This document shows positions 7,478-64,000 of a stretch of 64,000 nucleotides of DNA, in pieces. The notes under the pieces are model-generated. The model did not search any database. It was not told where the DNA came from and saw only the letters and a list, made by a program, of their open reading frames with translations. This stretch comes from Lysobacteraceae bacterium (GTDB lineage Bacteria; Pseudomonadota; Gammaproteobacteria; Xanthomonadales; Xanthomonadaceae): contig JAGWUF010000005.1 in NCBI GenBank assembly GCA_028868545.1, positions 1-64,000 on the forward strand, written 5' to 3'. How positions within the stretch are numbered: position 1 is the stretch's first letter; each line of letters opens with the position of its first letter. A program made the position numbers and the translations under genes.

Positions 7478-9241
7478 TTACCCGGCCGGTGGCGCCGGCT
7501 CCGTGGTTGACGCCGGTGCCGGGCGCACGCTGCCATTGTCTTCCTGCAAGGCCGGTTTGAAGGGAATCTCCGGGGCCTTGCGCCCGGTCGAATTCTGCTC
7601 GTTGGCATCCGGATCCACCGGCAGGCAGCCGCCACCGAACTGCAACAGCGACACCACGCATTTAAGTTTCAGCTTGGTGCCGGGTATCGGAATCGACATT
7701 TCCTTGATGCCCTTGCGCACCCACTCCTGCAGCAGGTTGCCTTCGGGAATCCAGTATTTGTCGAAACGGGTGCCGCGATATTCCAGACCGGGACGCTTGA
7801 GCCAGGTGCCGGAACGATCCAGATCGATGCCGCTATTCTTCGACCACTGATCCGGCAGGCGTGCACTGCCGTCGGCGTTGAACAGGCCATCCTTGCCGTC
7901 CCCATTGTGGCCATTGCCATTGCCATGACCTGCACCCGTGCCCGCGGCGTTGCGGGTGGAGGCCCCCCAGTCATCGCTCTTGCCAGCGCCGGGCCAGCCG
8001 CCGGGTGCCGGTTTCAGGCCCGGCCCGGCACCTGCTCCAACAGCACCCATCCCGCGTCCACCGGCCTGTGCCGCGTGTACGCCCGCGCCCTGCCCGGCTT
8101 GCGCCTGCCCGTTGCCAGCGGCATTGGTCTTGTTGCCACCGGCACCTGCGGTTGCGGCCTGGCCGCTGGCGGCACTGCCCTGTCCGGGATGGGCAGCCAC
8201 CGCGCCGCCATCGCCCGCACGCATCGGCAACTCCCGCACCTGCCCCTGCAACTGTGGCACCTGCACATCGCGGGTGGTGTTCTTGCTGGCCACCGCCCGC
8301 TGTTGGGTGAGTGCTTGCGCGTTGGGGGTAAATACCTCCAGCGCCTGCACTTGGGTCTTCAATTCCGGTGCGCGCAGGGGGACATCGCGGGGCTTGACTT
8401 GCAAGGTATGCACCGGCTGCGCCTCCAGCGTTGCCACCGCTTCCACCTGCTGCTGCGGCTGGGCATCGCGCAGCTTCACCTCCGGCATCACCACCGTGCG
8501 CTCACGCGGTGGTGGCAACTGGAAGCTGTCCGGCTGCGGCTGCGGCACGTTGCTGACTTGCAGTTGCTGCGCCGCCGTTGCCTCTGCCGGCACCGGCTTG
8601 GGCTGTTGCAAGGTCGGTGCCGCTTGCTCGGCGGTCAATGCCGGGGGAGGTGACACGGATACCTGCTCCAACGCCACGTCCGCACGCGAATCGGCGTTGC
8701 CGGAGGCCGGCTGCCCCGGCTTCGTGGCGGGCTGGCGGGCAGCAGAGGCCGCTGCCGGCGCAGACTCGGCACCGGCATTGGCCAAGGCGCCACCGCCCGT
8801 CGCCACATTGCCGCGCCCGATGAATTCCACCTGCACCGCCTCGGATGCCTCGTCTTCCTGCTGCTGCGCCAGCGCCAGAAACCGCAGGTACATCAGCCAC
8901 AGCAACAAGGCCGCCAGCACCAGATGCAACAGGATGTCGATGGCGCCCACGCCGATGCGCAAGCCGCGATCTTCCCGCGGGTTGGCCGGACGGCCCAGCC
9001 GCAACAACTGGAAGAACGGCGCCCCCAGCCCACCGCGCTTGCCCACTGCCTGCTGCGGCCGCAGGACAAGCGTGTCTACCCAGGCCTGTGGCGGGGCGTG
9101 GCGTATCGGGGCGGCCTGTTGCTGCAGGGTATCCAGCCAATCCTGCCAGCCCACAGGCAGACCGGTTGCGATGTCCGTGCGCCCGGTCTTGAGCAGACGC
9201 CGCTGATTGAGTGCGGCGATGACGTCATTGGCTGTCGTCAC
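7478..9241 (-). CDS. Inner-membrane protein with long low-complexity Gln/Pro/Gly/Ala region (transmembrane repetitive protein-like)
   Basis: Single TM IDILLHLVLAALLLWLMYLRFLAL, then low-complexity sequence and a C-terminal domain with KLKCVVSLLQFGGGCLPV. Confidence 0.65.
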   Translation of the reverse strand: MTTANDVIAALNQRRLLKTGRTDIATGLPVGWQDWLDTLQQQAAPIRHAPPQAWVDTLVLRPQQAVGKRGGLGAPFFQLLRLGRPANPREDRGLRIGVGAIDILLHLVLAALLLWLMYLRFLALAQQQEDEASEAVQVEFIGRGNVATGGGALANAGAESAPAAASAARQPATKPGQPASGNADSRADVALEQVSVSPPPALTAEQAAPTLQQPKPVPAEATAAQQLQVSNVPQPQPDSFQLPPPRERTVVMPEVKLRDAQPQQQVEAVATLEAQPVHTLQVKPRDVPLRAPELKTQVQALEVFTPNAQALTQQRAVASKNTTRDVQVPQLQGQVRELPMRAGDGGAVAAHPGQGSAASGQAATAGAGGNKTNAAGNGQAQAGQGAGVHAAQAGGRGMGAVGAGAGPGLKPAPGGWPGAGKSDDWGASTRNAAGTGAGHGNGNGHNGDGKDGLFNADGSARLPDQWSKNSGIDLDRSGTWLKRPGLEYRGTRFDKYWIPEGNLLQEWVRKGIKEMSIPIPGTKLKLKCVVSLLQFGGGCLPVDPDANEQNSTGRKAPEIPFKPALQEDNGSVRPAPASTTEPAPPAG

Positions 9242-11182: not shown

Positions 11183-12144
11183 GCCAGCCGGTCCAGCACC
11201 TCGATCAACTCCGGCACCAGCGGCGCATTGAGCAAGTACGGGGTTTTGCCGTCATCCAGCGCAAATTCCAGCGTCGATGCGTGCAAAAACAGCCGTTTCA
11301 ACCCAATTTGTTCACGAAGCCGCTTGTTCGCCGCAAGATCGCCGTATTTATCATCGCCGGCCACCGGGTGGCCGATGTGCTGGGCGTGCACGCGAATCTG
11401 ATGGGTACGGCCGGTTTCGATGCGGATTTCGCAGTAACTCTGGCCACCACGTCGTTCCAGCACCCGGAAATGGCTCATCGACGGCTTGCCGGCCGGGTTG
11501 ACCTGCACATGCCGCTCGCCGCCCTGGCGCAGGCCGACGTGCAACGGTGCGTCCACGCTCATGGTGCCGTCTGGCATGCGTCCCACCAACAGCGCCAGAT
11601 AGCGTTTTTCGATGCCAGATCCATGATCTTCACGTAACAATCGCTGAAGTTCTGATAATGCCGCGCGTTTCTTGGCCAGCACCAGCAGGCCCGAGGTATC
11701 CCTGTCCAGTCGATGCACCAACTCCAGGCTGTCGCGCGGGCGCAGGGCGCGCAGGGTTTCGATCACGCCGAAGGAAATCCCGCTGCCGCCGTGGCTGGCG
11801 ATGCCGGACGGCTTGTTGATGGCCAGCAGGCGGGCGTCCTCGAACACGATGGATGCTTCAAGCGCTGTCAACAGGCCTTTTGGCGGCGAACGTCCTTCAT
11901 CTTGCGACGATTCGAGCCGAACAGGCGGAATTCTGACTTCATCCCCCGCCTCCAGCTTGCGCTCGGCCTTGGCCCGCCCACCGTTGATCCGCACCTGCCC
12001 GCTGCGCACCAGCTTGTAGATCAGCGAGCGCGGCGCACCTTTGAGTTGCCCCAGCAGGAAATTGTCCAACCGCTGGCCGGTGCGGTCTTCAGGAACGCGA
12101 ACCGTTCGGGCACCGAGGCTGGCGGGGGGGGCAGGCTGTGTCAT
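11179..12144 (-). CDS. rluC: 23S rRNA pseudouridine synthase RluC
   Basis: S4-like N-terminus (QRLDNFLLGQLKGAPRSLIYKLVRSGQVRING) and catalytic HRLDRDTSGLLVLAK; start at MTQPAPPASLG. The 1506-aa track ORF is an artefactual extension. Confidence 0.93.
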   Translation of the reverse strand: MTQPAPPASLGARTVRVPEDRTGQRLDNFLLGQLKGAPRSLIYKLVRSGQVRINGGRAKAERKLEAGDEVRIPPVRLESSQDEGRSPPKGLLTALEASIVFEDARLLAINKPSGIASHGGSGISFGVIETLRALRPRDSLELVHRLDRDTSGLLVLAKKRAALSELQRLLREDHGSGIEKRYLALLVGRMPDGTMSVDAPLHVGLRQGGERHVQVNPAGKPSMSHFRVLERRGGQSYCEIRIETGRTHQIRVHAQHIGHPVAGDDKYGDLAANKRLREQIGLKRLFLHASTLEFALDDGKTPYLLNAPLVPELIEVLDRLA

Positions 12145-12159
12145 CGGGGGCTGATCTGC

Positions 12160-12603
12160 TACACTCGGGGGGCGATGCAAGGGTTTGATTTCGCAGGAAG
12201 TGTCGGGCGATGCACTGCCCATCCGGCCGAAAGCCGGCCTGCCTGGCGAGCCCCGCCGCAGTGACGTTGGCCACCACCCTCGGGGTGGACATGTTAACGG
12301 CTGCGCGGCAAACCTGCCCATTGCCGGCACCCTGCCGTGACTGCATCCGTTGAACAACGCCCCGTGCGACGCGCCCATTCCAAAGGTTTGTGGCGGCGGT
12401 CGCCGGCCCCGCAACATATAAAACCAAGGAACAGGCGCTCCCGCGGTACGCCGTGGTGTTGCAGCGCTGGACAACTCAGGAGCGGTACGGCAAGCGTTGG
12501 ACGCTGCCGCGCGCTTGCGGTGACCAGAGGCAATACGCCCCGGTGTCCCGTGCATTGCCCCTCCCGACCGGGAGCGGGCAAGGACGCGCACGAGGAACAC
12601 ACA
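12160..12603 (+). promoter_or_regulatory. rne: Candidate rne promoter (-10 like TACACT at 12160-12165) and long structured 5' leader
   Basis: About 430 nt non-coding leader between divergent rluC and rne, several GC-rich hairpins (e.g. CCACCCTCGGGGTGG). Confidence 0.5.
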
Positions 12604-15600
12604 ATGAAGCGAATGCTCATCAACGCCACGCAGGCGGAAGAACTGCGGGTGGCCATCGTCGAAGGTCAGAACCTGTACGACATCGACATCGAACAGCCGT
12701 CCCGCGACAACAAGAAATCCAATATCTACAAGGGCCGGATCACCCGGCTGGAACCCTCGCTGGAAGCGGCCTTCGTGGAATACGGCGCCGACCGCCACGG
12801 CTTTTTGCCGCTGAAGGAAATCTCCCGCGACTACTTCCAGGCCGGGGTGGACCACCACAAGGCCGGCATCAAGGAACTCCTGCGCGAAGGCCAGGAAGTG
12901 GTGGTGCAGGTGGACAAGGAAGAGCGCGGCAACAAGGGCGCTGCGCTGACCACCTTCATCTCGCTGGCTGGCCGCTACATGGTGCTGATGCCGAACTCGC
13001 CCACCGCCGGCGGCGTCTCGCGCCGGATCGAGGGCGACGATCGCGCCGAACTCAAGCGCGCGATGGACGCACTGAACATTCCCGACGACATGGGCGTGAT
13101 CATCCGCACTGCCGGTGTCGGCCGCGACGCGGAAGAACTGCAGTGGGATCTGGACTACCTGCTGAGCATCTGGCGCGCGATCGCCGAGGCTGCACTGAGC
13201 AAGCCGGCGCCGTTCCTGATCTACCAGGAAAGCCGTCTGATCGTGCGCGCCCTGCGTGACTACATGCGCAGCGACATCGGCGAAATCCTGGTGGATACCC
13301 CGGAGATGTTCGCCGAGGCACTGGAATTCGTCGAGCAGGTGATGCCGCACAACAAGCGCAAGCTCAAGCACTACACCGACGACACCCCGTTGTTCAACCG
13401 TTTCCAGATCGAGTCGCAGATCGAGTCGGCCTATGAGCGCACCGTGCGCCTGCCCTCCGGCGGCGCACTGGTGATCGACCAGACCGAGGCGCTGACCGCC
13501 ATCGACGTCAACTCGGCGCGTGCCACCAAGGGTGGCGACATCGAGGAAACCGCGTTCAACACCAACCTGGAAGCCGCCGAGGAAGTGGCCCGTCAGCTGC
13601 GCCTGCGCGACCTGGGCGGGCTGGTGGTGATCGACTTCATCGACATGACCTTGGGCAAGCACCAGCGCGATGTCGAGAACAAGCTGCAGAACGCGCTGAA
13701 ATACGACCGTGCACGCGTGCAGCTGGGCCGCATCAGCCGCTTCGGCCTGATGGAAATGAGCCGCCAGCGCCTGCGGCCCAGCCTGGGCGAAGCCAGCCAG
13801 ATCGTGTGCCCGCGCTGCGAAGGCCATGGCCGCATGCGCAGCATCGAATCCTTGAGCCTGTCGATCATCCGCGTGGCCGAAGAGCACGCGATGAAGGACA
13901 ACACCGGCCAAGTTCTGGTGCAGGCCCCCGTCGAAATTGCCAACTTCCTGCTCAATGAAAAGCGCAGTGCGCTGCGTGAAATCGAGCAGCGCCACGATGC
14001 CCCCATCGTGATCGTGGCCGACGAACAGCTGCAGTCCCCGCACTACGAAGTCACCCGCATCCGCAGCAACGAGATGGGCGAGGAAACCAGCAAGCCCAGC
14101 TATCAGCGGGGGACTCCGCGCAAGCTGAACACCATTGCGCTGACCAAGGCGCAACTCAACATCCCGCCGCCGGCCGTCACCAAAGTACATCCGGTGCAGC
14201 CTGCACCACTGCGTGAACCCAAGCCGATGCCGCAGGAGGCACTCGCCGCACCCGTTGCCACCGCACCACACACCGCACCGGCAGCGGCTGCGCAAACCGG
14301 CACCGGCGTGATCGGCTGGTTGCGCGGCCTGTTCAGCGCCGCGCCGCCCGCCCCCGCTGCCGCCGCAACTCCGGCTGCCGCCCCACCGCAGGGAGGCCAG
14401 CAGCGCCGTGACGAGCGCGGCAATCGGCGCGACAACCGCAACAAGGGTGAATCGCGGCGCGACGAGGGCAAGCAGCGCGACAACCGCAACGATCAAGCCC
14501 AGAAGCAGCAGCCGACCCCGCAGCAACCAAAACAGAAATCGCAACAGCCGCAGCAGACACAGAAGCAGCAGGCACAAAAGCAGGAGACTCGTCCGGACAA
14601 GCAACCTGCCCCGGACAAGCAGGATCGCCAGCAGCCGCAACAGAAATCCCCCAAACCGCAGCGGCAAGAACGTGCAGAACCGGCAACCGGCACCGTGCAG
14701 TCCGGGAATGCCCAACCCGCAGCAGAGCCCTCCGCAACCGCTGCCGTCGCGGCAACCGCCGCAGCTGCGGCGGTCACGCTCACGGCTGCGGCCACTGCGA
14801 CCGAAGGTGCTGTCGAACAGCTGCAAACTGCCAGTCCGGACAGTGCTGATGTCAACCCGGTCAACGCCGCCACCGATGACAATGCCGCCTCCGAAGGGAC
14901 TGGCAAGCGTCGTCGCGGTCGCCGTGGCGGTCGGCGTCGGCGTCGCGGGCAAGGCGATGCCGCCGGTCTGGCCGATGATGCGGGTAGTGATGGCGAGGAT
15001 GGGCTGGAAGAAGTACTGGATCGCGATGGCGCGCAGCCGGAGTTCGATTTCGACGATATCGAGCCTGCAGCTTCGGTCGCCGTCGCCGCGACACCCGCAG
15101 TGACAGTACCGGCCGCGGTCGTGACCGTTGCCGACACGCCTGCATCCAGTGGCACCACCCCGAAGCCCGCCGCGTTGCCGCCGGAAGCAACAACCGGGCA
15201 GGCGTCGATCGCCATCATCCAGGACATCGCGGCCCAGGATTCCCTTCCCCTGATTGTCACCGAAGTGGTGTCGAGCGCGGAGCCCGTCGCCACTGCTCCC
15301 CTGCCGCCCGTGGATGCCGTCACCGCAACGGCCTCGGCAACCATGATCGAGCCCGCAGCCGCAGAAATCGTCGAACCCGTCACGCCATCCAGCCCGGCAA
15401 TCGTCAACATGCTCTCGGACGCGCCGGCCACGCAGACCACTGCATCGGCAACGGCATCCACCGTGGCCGATGCCAGCGAGGACGACGCGGATGCGGCGGC
15501 CATGCAGCGCGCCGAGAAACTGCGTGGCTTGTTCGAAACCGCAAAACACGACGTGCTGCCCGCGCCTGCGGCAGCGGCCACGAGTGTCACGTCCGAAGCG

Positions 15601-16532: not shown

Positions 16533-18087
<1,555 letters not shown>

Positions 18088-61062: not shown

Positions 61063-62727
61063 TCAGCGTGGCGGCATCGCCTGCAAGCGCCCGGCCTCCA
61101 GCCGCAGCACGCGATCGGCCAGCGCCAGGCTGGCGGGGCGATGGGTAATCATGATCACGGTGCGCTGTTTCAGCACGTCATGGCATTCGGCGATGAATTC
61201 GGCCTCGCCCTCGGGGTCGAACATCGCGGTGGCCTCGTCCAGGATCAGGATCGGTGGATCCTTCAGCAGCGCCCGCGCCAACGCCAGCCGCTGGCGCTGG
61301 CCGCCGGAGAGCTTCACCCCTTGATCGCCCACCACCGTGTCATAGCCCTGCGGCAACGCGGTGATGAAAACATGCGCCCGCGCTGCACGCGCCGCGCGTT
61401 CGACTTCGGCCTGGGTTGCCTGCCCGCGCCCGTACACGATGTTCTGGCGCACCGTCGCGTTGAACAGCAGTACCTGCTGTGCCACCAACCCGATCTGCCC
61501 GCGCAGCGCCGACAGCCGGAATTCGCGCACATCCACGCCGCCGATGGCGATGCGCCCCGCCTGCGGCTCCAGCAACCGCAACAGCAGATGCACCAATGTG
61601 CTCTTGCCGGCGCCATTGCTGCCGGTCAGGGCCACGGTTTCGCCCGCCGCAATCACCAGATCGAACCCGGCAAACAACCGTGCACGCCCCGGATAGGCAA
61701 ACCCCACCGCCTCGAACCGGATCTCGCCCGCATGCGGCACCTGCGCCAGCGTGCCTGCATCCACTTCCGGCGCGGCCTGCAGCGCCTCACCCAGACGCTG
61801 CGCCGCACCGCGCGCGGTCTGGGTCATGCCATAGACGTTGGCCAACTGGCCCAGCGGGCTGACCAGCACCAGGCCATACAGGAACAGACTGACCAGTGTC
61901 CCCATGCCGGTTTCGCCGCCCACCACCGAACGCCCGGCCAGCCCCAGCAACAACAGGATCGCGCCCGCCCCGATCACCTGCACCAGCGGCAGAATCGCGT
62001 CTTCCCAGCGCGCCTGCCGGAACTCGCTGGCGAACAGTTTTTCGGCGGCATCCCGATAGCGCTGCGCCTCGGCGGCATCGGTGGCGAACGCCTTGATGAC
62101 CGGCAGCAGCGCCAGGTTCTGCTCGGCCAGCGCGCTCTGGTCGGCCCAGGCCTGCATCGACGCCGCACCCAGTGGTCGCAATTTGCGCCCAAGCAGTTTC
62201 AACACCACGAACAACACCGGCATCAACACCGCGACGCACACCGCCACCAGCGGTGCCATCCGGAACATCAGCAGCAACGCACCGGCCAGGGTGAACAGCA
62301 ACGGCACCAGCGGCACCAGCGCCGCGGTCACGAAACTGCTCAACCGATGCACATCCCCCAGCAGCAGCGCCAGCACATCCCCGCGTTGCCGCGCGTGATG
62401 CCAGGCCAGCGGCAGTGCCTGCAGATGCGCATACAGCTGCGCGCTGACATCGGCCACCATCTGCCCGGACGCCCGCTGCAACTGCATCGCCACCACATAG
62501 CCCAGCGCCTGCTGCGCGCAGATCAACCCGAACAGCAGCCACAGCAACGCCCCCACCTGCTGGTTGAACAACAAGCGGTCGGTCAGCACCCCGCCCAACC
62601 ACGGTTGCGCCAGGGTCGCTGCGCTTTGCACCAGCATCAAACCCAGCGCCAGCAGCAACTGCGGCAGGTGCGGGCGCAGCCAGGTGCGCAGCATCGACCA
62701 CAACGAAGGTTGCGCAAGTGGCGTCAT
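61063..62727 (-). CDS. ABC exporter, fused TM and ATPase domains (possible RiPP exporter)
   Basis: Walker A LTGSNGAGKSTLVHLLL; LSGGQRQRLALARALLKDPPILILDEAT; divergent from PqqD-like gene; start chosen at MTPLAQPSLW (track ORF extends to 62817). Confidence 0.88.
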   Translation of the reverse strand: MTPLAQPSLWSMLRTWLRPHLPQLLLALGLMLVQSAATLAQPWLGGVLTDRLLFNQQVGALLWLLFGLICAQQALGYVVAMQLQRASGQMVADVSAQLYAHLQALPLAWHHARQRGDVLALLLGDVHRLSSFVTAALVPLVPLLFTLAGALLLMFRMAPLVAVCVAVLMPVLFVVLKLLGRKLRPLGAASMQAWADQSALAEQNLALLPVIKAFATDAAEAQRYRDAAEKLFASEFRQARWEDAILPLVQVIGAGAILLLLGLAGRSVVGGETGMGTLVSLFLYGLVLVSPLGQLANVYGMTQTARGAAQRLGEALQAAPEVDAGTLAQVPHAGEIRFEAVGFAYPGRARLFAGFDLVIAAGETVALTGSNGAGKSTLVHLLLRLLEPQAGRIAIGGVDVREFRLSALRGQIGLVAQQVLLFNATVRQNIVYGRGQATQAEVERAARAARAHVFITALPQGYDTVVGDQGVKLSGGQRQRLALARALLKDPPILILDEATAMFDPEGEAEFIAECHDVLKQRTVIMITHRPASLALADRVLRLEAGRLQAMPPR

Positions 62728-62867
62728 CAGTGGCAGCGATGGCGTGTCATCCGGCACAAGGATGCCGGCAACGCGTGCCGGCGTCACCTGGATTCGGCCA
62801 CATGCGCGCTGGATCACCCCCGCGCGTCTCGGCCATACTTGCAGATATCCCTCAGGACGAGACCGCC

Positions 62868-63161
62868 ATGCCCGCTTTCCCGAACAGTGTCACGCTGGAA
62901 AGCCGGCTGGTTCGATCCCCCGATGTCCTCTTCCAGGAAGTGGGCGGCGAAGCCGTGCTGCTGGATCTGGCCAGCGAGCAGTACTTCGGGCTGGATCCGG
63001 TGGGCACGCGGATCTGGGAACTGCTCGATGGCGAAGCGCCGCTGGCCCGCATCCACCACACACTGGCCGCCGAGTACGATGCCAAGCCCGCGCGCATCGG
63101 CGAGGATCTGCTGGCGCTGGCGCAGACGCTGCTGGACGCCGGCCTGGTGCAGCCACGCTGA
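62868..63161 (+). CDS. PqqD-family protein (RiPP recognition element-like)
   Basis: VRSPDVLFQEVGGEAVLLDLASEQYFGLDPVGTRIWELLDGEAPLARIHHTLAAEYDAKPARIGEDLLALAQTLLDAGLV. Confidence 0.85.
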   Translation: MPAFPNSVTLESRLVRSPDVLFQEVGGEAVLLDLASEQYFGLDPVGTRIWELLDGEAPLARIHHTLAAEYDAKPARIGEDLLALAQTLLDAGLVQPR

Positions 63162-63163
63162 CA

Positions 63164-63633
63164 TGTCACGGGCGTTGCGCCAGTGGTGGGCCCTGCCCAG
63201 GCGCGAGCGCGTCCTCCTGCTCGTCCTGATGGGGTTGCAACCGCTGTTGTCGCTGTCGCTGCGCCTGCTGGGCTATCGCCGGACCCGGGCGATGCTTGAA
63301 GCCCTGAGCCAGCGTCCGGCCATGCCGGCCGTCAACCCGGAACAACGGGCCGCCGCACAGCGGCTGGCCGAACTGGCCAATATCGCCGGCCGACGCGGCC
63401 CGGTCGCCAGCACCTGCCTGCGGCAGGCGCTGGCGGTGCATTGGCTGCTGCGGCGCCGGGGCCTGCAGCCGCAGCTGCGGTTCGGCGTGGATCGCATCGG
63501 CGCCACCCCCGACATGCATGCCTGGGTGGAACTGGAAGGCGTCCCGCTGGCGCAGCCGCAGCTGCGGCATCGCGCGTTTCAGCCGGCGACGTCGGCCAGC
63601 ACCGCGGCCACCACCGACTCCAGCGCATCGTAG
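63164..63633 (+). CDS. Lasso-peptide B2-type transglutaminase-like protease
   Basis: GPVASTCLRQALAVHWLLRRRGLQPQLRFGV...DMHAWVELEG; directly follows the PqqD-like gene. Confidence 0.85.
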
Positions 63634-64000
63634 CGGCGCGGATAGTCCAGCCGCCGCAGCGGCACCTCGCGCACCAGCCGCGCGCCGGCGGCCAGGTTGC
63701 GCTTGAGCACCGACGGGTTCTTGATGTCCAGCACGAAGGCGTTCGCGGCCAAGCCGATCAAGGCCTGCGACGGCGACAAGGTTTCGATGGCCGGTGCATC
63801 CACCTTGCCTTCGCCCAGCAGGTAGACGCGCGCCAGCGGCAGCGCACGGTCGCAGTGCGGCAAATCGGTCGCCGCCTCAAGCCGCGGTTTCGGCGAGCCT
63901 TCGACGTAGACGCTGCGGCCCTCGCCCAGCGCCGCGACGCTGTCTTCCCACAGCCGCACGTGCGCGGCATGCGGATGCACGTGGATGCGCGGCTGCGCAA
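63579..64000 (-). CDS. HprK-like serine kinase, C-terminal part (runs off window end)
   Basis: Frame stays open to the window edge (AQPRIHVHPHAAHVRLWEDSVAALG...); C-terminal LSPSQALIGLAANAFVLDIKNPSVLKRNLAAGARLVREVPLRRLDYPRRYDALESVVAAVL resembles HPr kinase-related proteins of RiPP clusters. Confidence 0.65.
   Translation of the reverse strand, partial: AQPRIHVHPHAAHVRLWEDSVAALGEGRSVYVEGSPKPRLEAATDLPHCDRALPLARVYLLGEGKVDAPAIETLSPSQALIGLAANAFVLDIKNPSVLKRNLAAGARLVREVPLRRLDYPRRYDALESVVAAVLADVAG

Follow-up and report, generated by a model that had tools for sequence, protein, structure and literature searches.

The right-hand end of the analysed DNA raises the question of whether a partial set of peptide-modification genes belongs to a lasso peptide system or to another type of RiPP locus, and whether this system could still yield a product. 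The window, i.e. the whole stretch of DNA that was analysed (64,000 nucleotides), corresponds to positions 1-64000 of a contig of 71,226 bp, which is part of a genome assembly of 2.65 Mb in 117 contigs; the 7.2 kb beyond the window edge were also read. A sequence-only reading of the window had described a minus-strand ABC exporter divergent from a PqqD-like gene, a transglutaminase-like B2 protease and a convergent HprK-like ORF open at the window edge. It had proposed an HprK-associated RiPP or lasso module which either continues past position 64000 or represents a non-lasso variant, no precursor or cyclase having been recognised within the window. All of the described genes are present, and family models confirmed the assignments of the exporter (ABC_membrane, ABC_tran), the PqqD-like protein (PF05402) and the protease (NF033537, above its cut-off). 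The locus does continue: directly outside the window lie the N-terminal part of the kinase and then a short precursor, a lasso cyclase and a nucleotidyltransferase-like gene (Table 1).

Table 1. Features of the lasso peptide cluster (contig coordinates, identical to those of the window up to position 64000).
Feature	Coordinates	Strand	Evidence
D, ABC exporter	61063-62817	-	Pfam ABC_membrane (E 6e-33), ABC_tran (E 9e-34)
B1, PqqD-like leader-binding protein (RRE)	62868-63161	+	PF05402 (E 5e-17, above cut-off)
B2, transglutaminase-like leader protease	63163-63633	+	NF033537 lasso_biosyn_B2 (75 bits; cut-off 33)
K, HprK-like kinase, 281 aa	63579-64424 (C-terminal part, 63579-64000, in window)	-	Weak matches to HprK models; fold
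Remnant precursor tail with TGA	64434-64484	-	Similarity to tails of relatives
A, precursor, 45 aa	64485-64622	-	YxxPxL leader (YAAPSL), Thr(-2)
C, Asn-synthetase-like lasso cyclase	64796-66703	-	PF00733 (E 5e-27)
N, NTP_transf_5 protein	66705-67826	-	PF14907 (E 6e-42)

Together, these genes constitute a complete A-B1-B2-C-D-K-N lasso set, of which D, B1 and B2 lie inside the window, K spans its edge, and A, C and N fall within 3.8 kb beyond it. On the minus strand the order is N-C-A-K, convergent on B1-B2, which are in turn divergent from the exporter, and the reading frames of all enzyme genes are free of stop codons. The presence of the cyclase and of a YxxPxL precursor identifies a lasso system and rules out the non-lasso variant, while the proposed HprK-associated module is borne out by the occurrence of A, C and N on the same contig. 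Inside the window, an Asn_synthase match at 17254-17424 is weak (E 1e-4, in a 534-aa frame) and probably derives from a GMP synthase. We consider it likely that the locus is a lasso cluster of the Bsf type, associated with a kinase and a nucleotidyltransferase, that its precursor gene is interrupted in frame by an amber codon three residues past the ring, and that the cluster is probably unproductive following a loss that appears to be recent. By analogy with known systems, the product class of the cluster would probably be a phosphorylated lasso peptide.

The exporter shares 51-72% identity with those of related clusters, except for L040 (39%, over the ATPase part); since homology begins near position 62727, the internal ATG located there is probably its true start. 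B1 also matches the lasso PqqD models NF033536 and NF033530 (E 5e-12 and 2e-9, respectively), under the cut-offs of these models. B2, whose 3' end is overlapped by the convergent K gene, retains the Cys (TCLRQ) and His (HAW) residues in an alignment with 13 relatives and BsfB2. The cyclase is a glutamine-amidotransferase/Asn-synthase protein with an SGGxDS motif, and its best NCBIfam match is the lasso cyclase NF033535 (E 4e-89, below the strict cut-off of the model). A wider scan of contigs from other genomes, with an alignment of C as query, yielded 80 loci, whereas the C sequence by itself gave no matches.

The kinase matches HprK family models only under their cut-offs. An AlphaFold2 model (pLDDT 87, pTM 0.87), for which 19 relatives were aligned, was grouped by Foldseek with PEP carboxykinases and HprK/P, proteins with a common P-loop fold; among solved structures, HprK is the best match of the K family profile. 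The catalytic His97, GxGKS and Asp135-Asp136 motifs are all present. The start of K lies approximately 40 residues further in than that of most related kinases, and Ala occupies the position of BsfK Gly163, as it also does in the kinase of the related locus L026; judging from this late start and substitution, K itself may be altered in this genome. In L026 (genome G081; 7500-8176 and 11224-13186) a frameshift divides the kinase gene, and two ORFs match the exporter, as a result of either decay or sequencing error. The split kinase gene indicates that decay or sequence error affects other members of the group as well.

The encoded precursor reads METKDVSTHVELMGKRTYAAPSLCRLGGLADLTA-SGSKGSPENTA and then TAG. 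The core as encoded comprises 11 residues with a predicted ring SGSKGSPE, and the YAAPSL leader, Thr(-2) and the acidic residue Glu8 (within core positions 7-9) are those of a lasso precursor. The ring fits the motif of kinase-associated relatives: among 36 E8-type cores, read with Tyr(-17) as a ruler (as in PMC10368454) and hand-assembled from pattern matches so that the counts depend on this selection, Gly2 occurs in 34, Ser/Thr3 in 32, Glu8 in 33 and Asp8 in two, the conservation of Glu8 (not that of Gly2 or Ser/Thr3) being partly built in, since the wider-scan pattern demanded an acidic residue at positions 7-9. These cores are 17-43 residues long; 17 of the 36 contain at least two Cys and four end in Ser. 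In a further 10 cores, which form a second group and mostly carry Asp at position 8 or 9, a C-terminal Ser is more frequent (6/10).

These features point to the type of phosphorylation. In the bsf cluster of Bradymonas sediminis FA350, composed of the same seven genes, the kinase phosphorylates Ser3 of the ring (PMC10368454). The locus described here shares with it the A, B1, B2, C, D, K, N set, the YxxPxL leader, Ser3 followed by an acidic residue 8, and the His, GxGKS and Asp-Asp motifs of the kinase. The two differ in residue -2 (Thr here, Ile in bsf) and in residue 8 (Glu here, Asp in bsf), and further in the only distant similarity of K to BsfK, the TAG within the precursor, and the Cys residues in the tails of the relatives. 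The kinases of paeninodin, ThcoK, SyanK and pseudomycoidin (PsmK) modify a C-terminal Ser (PMC9266682); they are likewise HprK-like, and pseudomycoidin also has an N-type protein (PsmN), but a C-terminal Ser is absent from 32 of the 36 E8-type relatives and from the precursor analysed here, whose encoded core ends in Ala and whose remnant tail ends in Cys. C-terminal phosphorylation of the paeninodin type was thus rejected, and the lack of this Ser, together with Ser/Thr3 in most relatives, favours the Bsf type. This refines the sequence-only reading, which had mentioned HprK-like kinases in connection with paeninodin-type phosphorylation. Class IV lasso peptides offer another parallel, as two Cys occur beyond the ring in the cores of relatives and in the remnant tail; however, the encoded core contains no Cys (it is found in the post-TAG tail and in most same-family relatives), and the reported class IV clusters (LP2006, pandonodin, felipeptins) have no kinase or nucleotidyltransferase gene (PMC9266682).

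The fate of the precursor depends on the TAG codon, which rests on one assembled consensus. The 16 codons after it read PGPPKFCTGNTNKRPC and are followed by TGA, 9 bp before the start codon of K, and this frame has suffered no further damage. In a test against 5000 shuffled versions of these 48 bases, all free of stops, the similarity of the post-TAG tail to the L024 tail (ending SCNGNINNTFNMC) was equalled by only 0.04% of shuffles and that to the L026 tail (ending NCTGQVDTTFSSC up to its last Cys) by only 0.02%, values to each of which a correction of approximately 15 applies because these two were the most similar of 15 relatives; the summed score was reached by none of the 5000. A profile of all relatives' tails was less discriminating, its score being reached by 19 of 1000 nucleotide shuffles and by 283 of 1000 residue shuffles. 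In L024 and L026, A is placed between C and K, as in the cluster described here, and CCGACAGGGGG before the start codon is common to L024 and this cluster. A precursor profile, of whose ten rows A is one, matches A with E 3e-13 across the TAG, and with this same profile no further precursor was found in the genome.

Truncation of the precursor by a recent nonsense mutation is the most likely explanation, and its recency is suggested by the enzyme genes, which remain open. Those open genes and the undamaged frame up to the TGA would equally suit a cluster that is intact in the living organism, with a true core in the 28-residue, Cys-containing form and a TAG that stems from an assembly or sequencing error or from a minor-strain allele. 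The fragmentation of the genome is in keeping with such an error, but a single-base consensus error exactly at this codon is a priori improbable, and we regard an intact cluster as unlikely. Given the 17-residue minimum in the relatives and general knowledge of lasso peptides, the encoded core is judged too short to thread with its 3-residue tail, and this allele probably yields no mature lasso peptide. Its ring and leader nevertheless fit the family and the enzymes are open, as would be expected if the 11-residue core were a real product, i.e. a short, phosphorylated, non-threaded macrolactam. Such a product is very improbable, as none of the E8-type relatives has so short a core and the post-TAG codons still resemble the tails of relatives, which would not be expected had the short form served as the product for a long time. 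Amber read-through, giving a full-length precursor alongside the short one, would account for the open, relative-like frame that ends just before K. We hold it to be extremely improbable, since no tRNA with a CTA anticodon (amber suppressor) was present among 46 tRNA matches in the genome, the relatives encode their tails without a stop, and the B2 and C genes also terminate in TAG.

The cluster type itself is already known, but in this genome its precursor gene is interrupted. Homologues of C (E <= 1e-40) occur in 12 of 25 genomes of the same genus, this one included. The neighbourhood comparison proposed earlier revealed, in the same and related genera, clusters in which ABC, B1, B2, C and K are differently arranged, most of them with N, and the wider scan found kinase-associated relatives in Alphaproteobacteria, Cyanobacteria, Acidobacteria and others. 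Compared with loci L018-L028, the cluster (L005 64-8506) looks like a mosaic: the nearest counterparts of B1 and B2 are in L026 (71 and 63%, respectively), those of C in L018/L019 (45-46%) and that of N in L023 (49%). The glycosyltransferase that flanks it has counterparts of 71-76% identity near the cluster in L022, L023 and L028, suggestive of a single chromosomal site whose contents have been exchanged. L022 (8854-11489; genome G262, same family) apparently encodes three precursors that differ in their tails; all have Glu8 and at least two Cys beyond or near the ring, though only one Cys pair is clear in each. In Cyanobium sp. ATX 6A2 (L043), a cyclase 38% identical to C is accompanied by nearby K, N, B1 and B2 matches, which may reflect horizontal transfer. 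Further along the contig (69372-71214; L005 8373-10215), a Y1/IS200-like transposase gene lies among several similar short intergenic repeats, which show up as recurrent peptide strings among the translated ORFs; this looks like a REP/RAYT arrangement. A search of the literature in PMC, which mostly does not cover subscription journals, returned no paper on such clusters in Thermomonas, nor any usable one on pseudogenes of lasso precursors.

By analogy with the bsf system (PMC10368454), B1 would bind the YxxPxL leader and present it to K and B2; K would phosphorylate Ser3 of the core, B2 would remove the leader by cutting after Thr(-2)-Ala(-1), and C would join the amino group of Ser1 to Glu8, giving an 8-residue ring. 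The phosphate may be modified further by N through attachment of a group, a role proposed for PsmN of pseudomycoidin (PMC9266682), and D would export the product. From the allele described here only the 11-residue core would be made, presumably without a mature product. A broader picture, in which Thermomonas-family clusters combine a phosphorylated ring Ser/Thr3 with a tail disulfide, exchange genes between species as separate pieces, and in this genome have retained their enzymes although a stop codon has switched off the product, is put forward tentatively and is rather doubtful as a whole.

For automated genome mining, which would report the 11-residue core as the product, the interrupted precursor serves as a warning. 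With this locus, the small number of kinase-associated lasso clusters studied so far gains a Gammaproteobacterial branch, and the relatives of the locus suggest a testable rule, namely that Gly2, Ser/Thr3 and Glu8 in the ring would predict phosphorylation of the ring rather than of the C-terminus.
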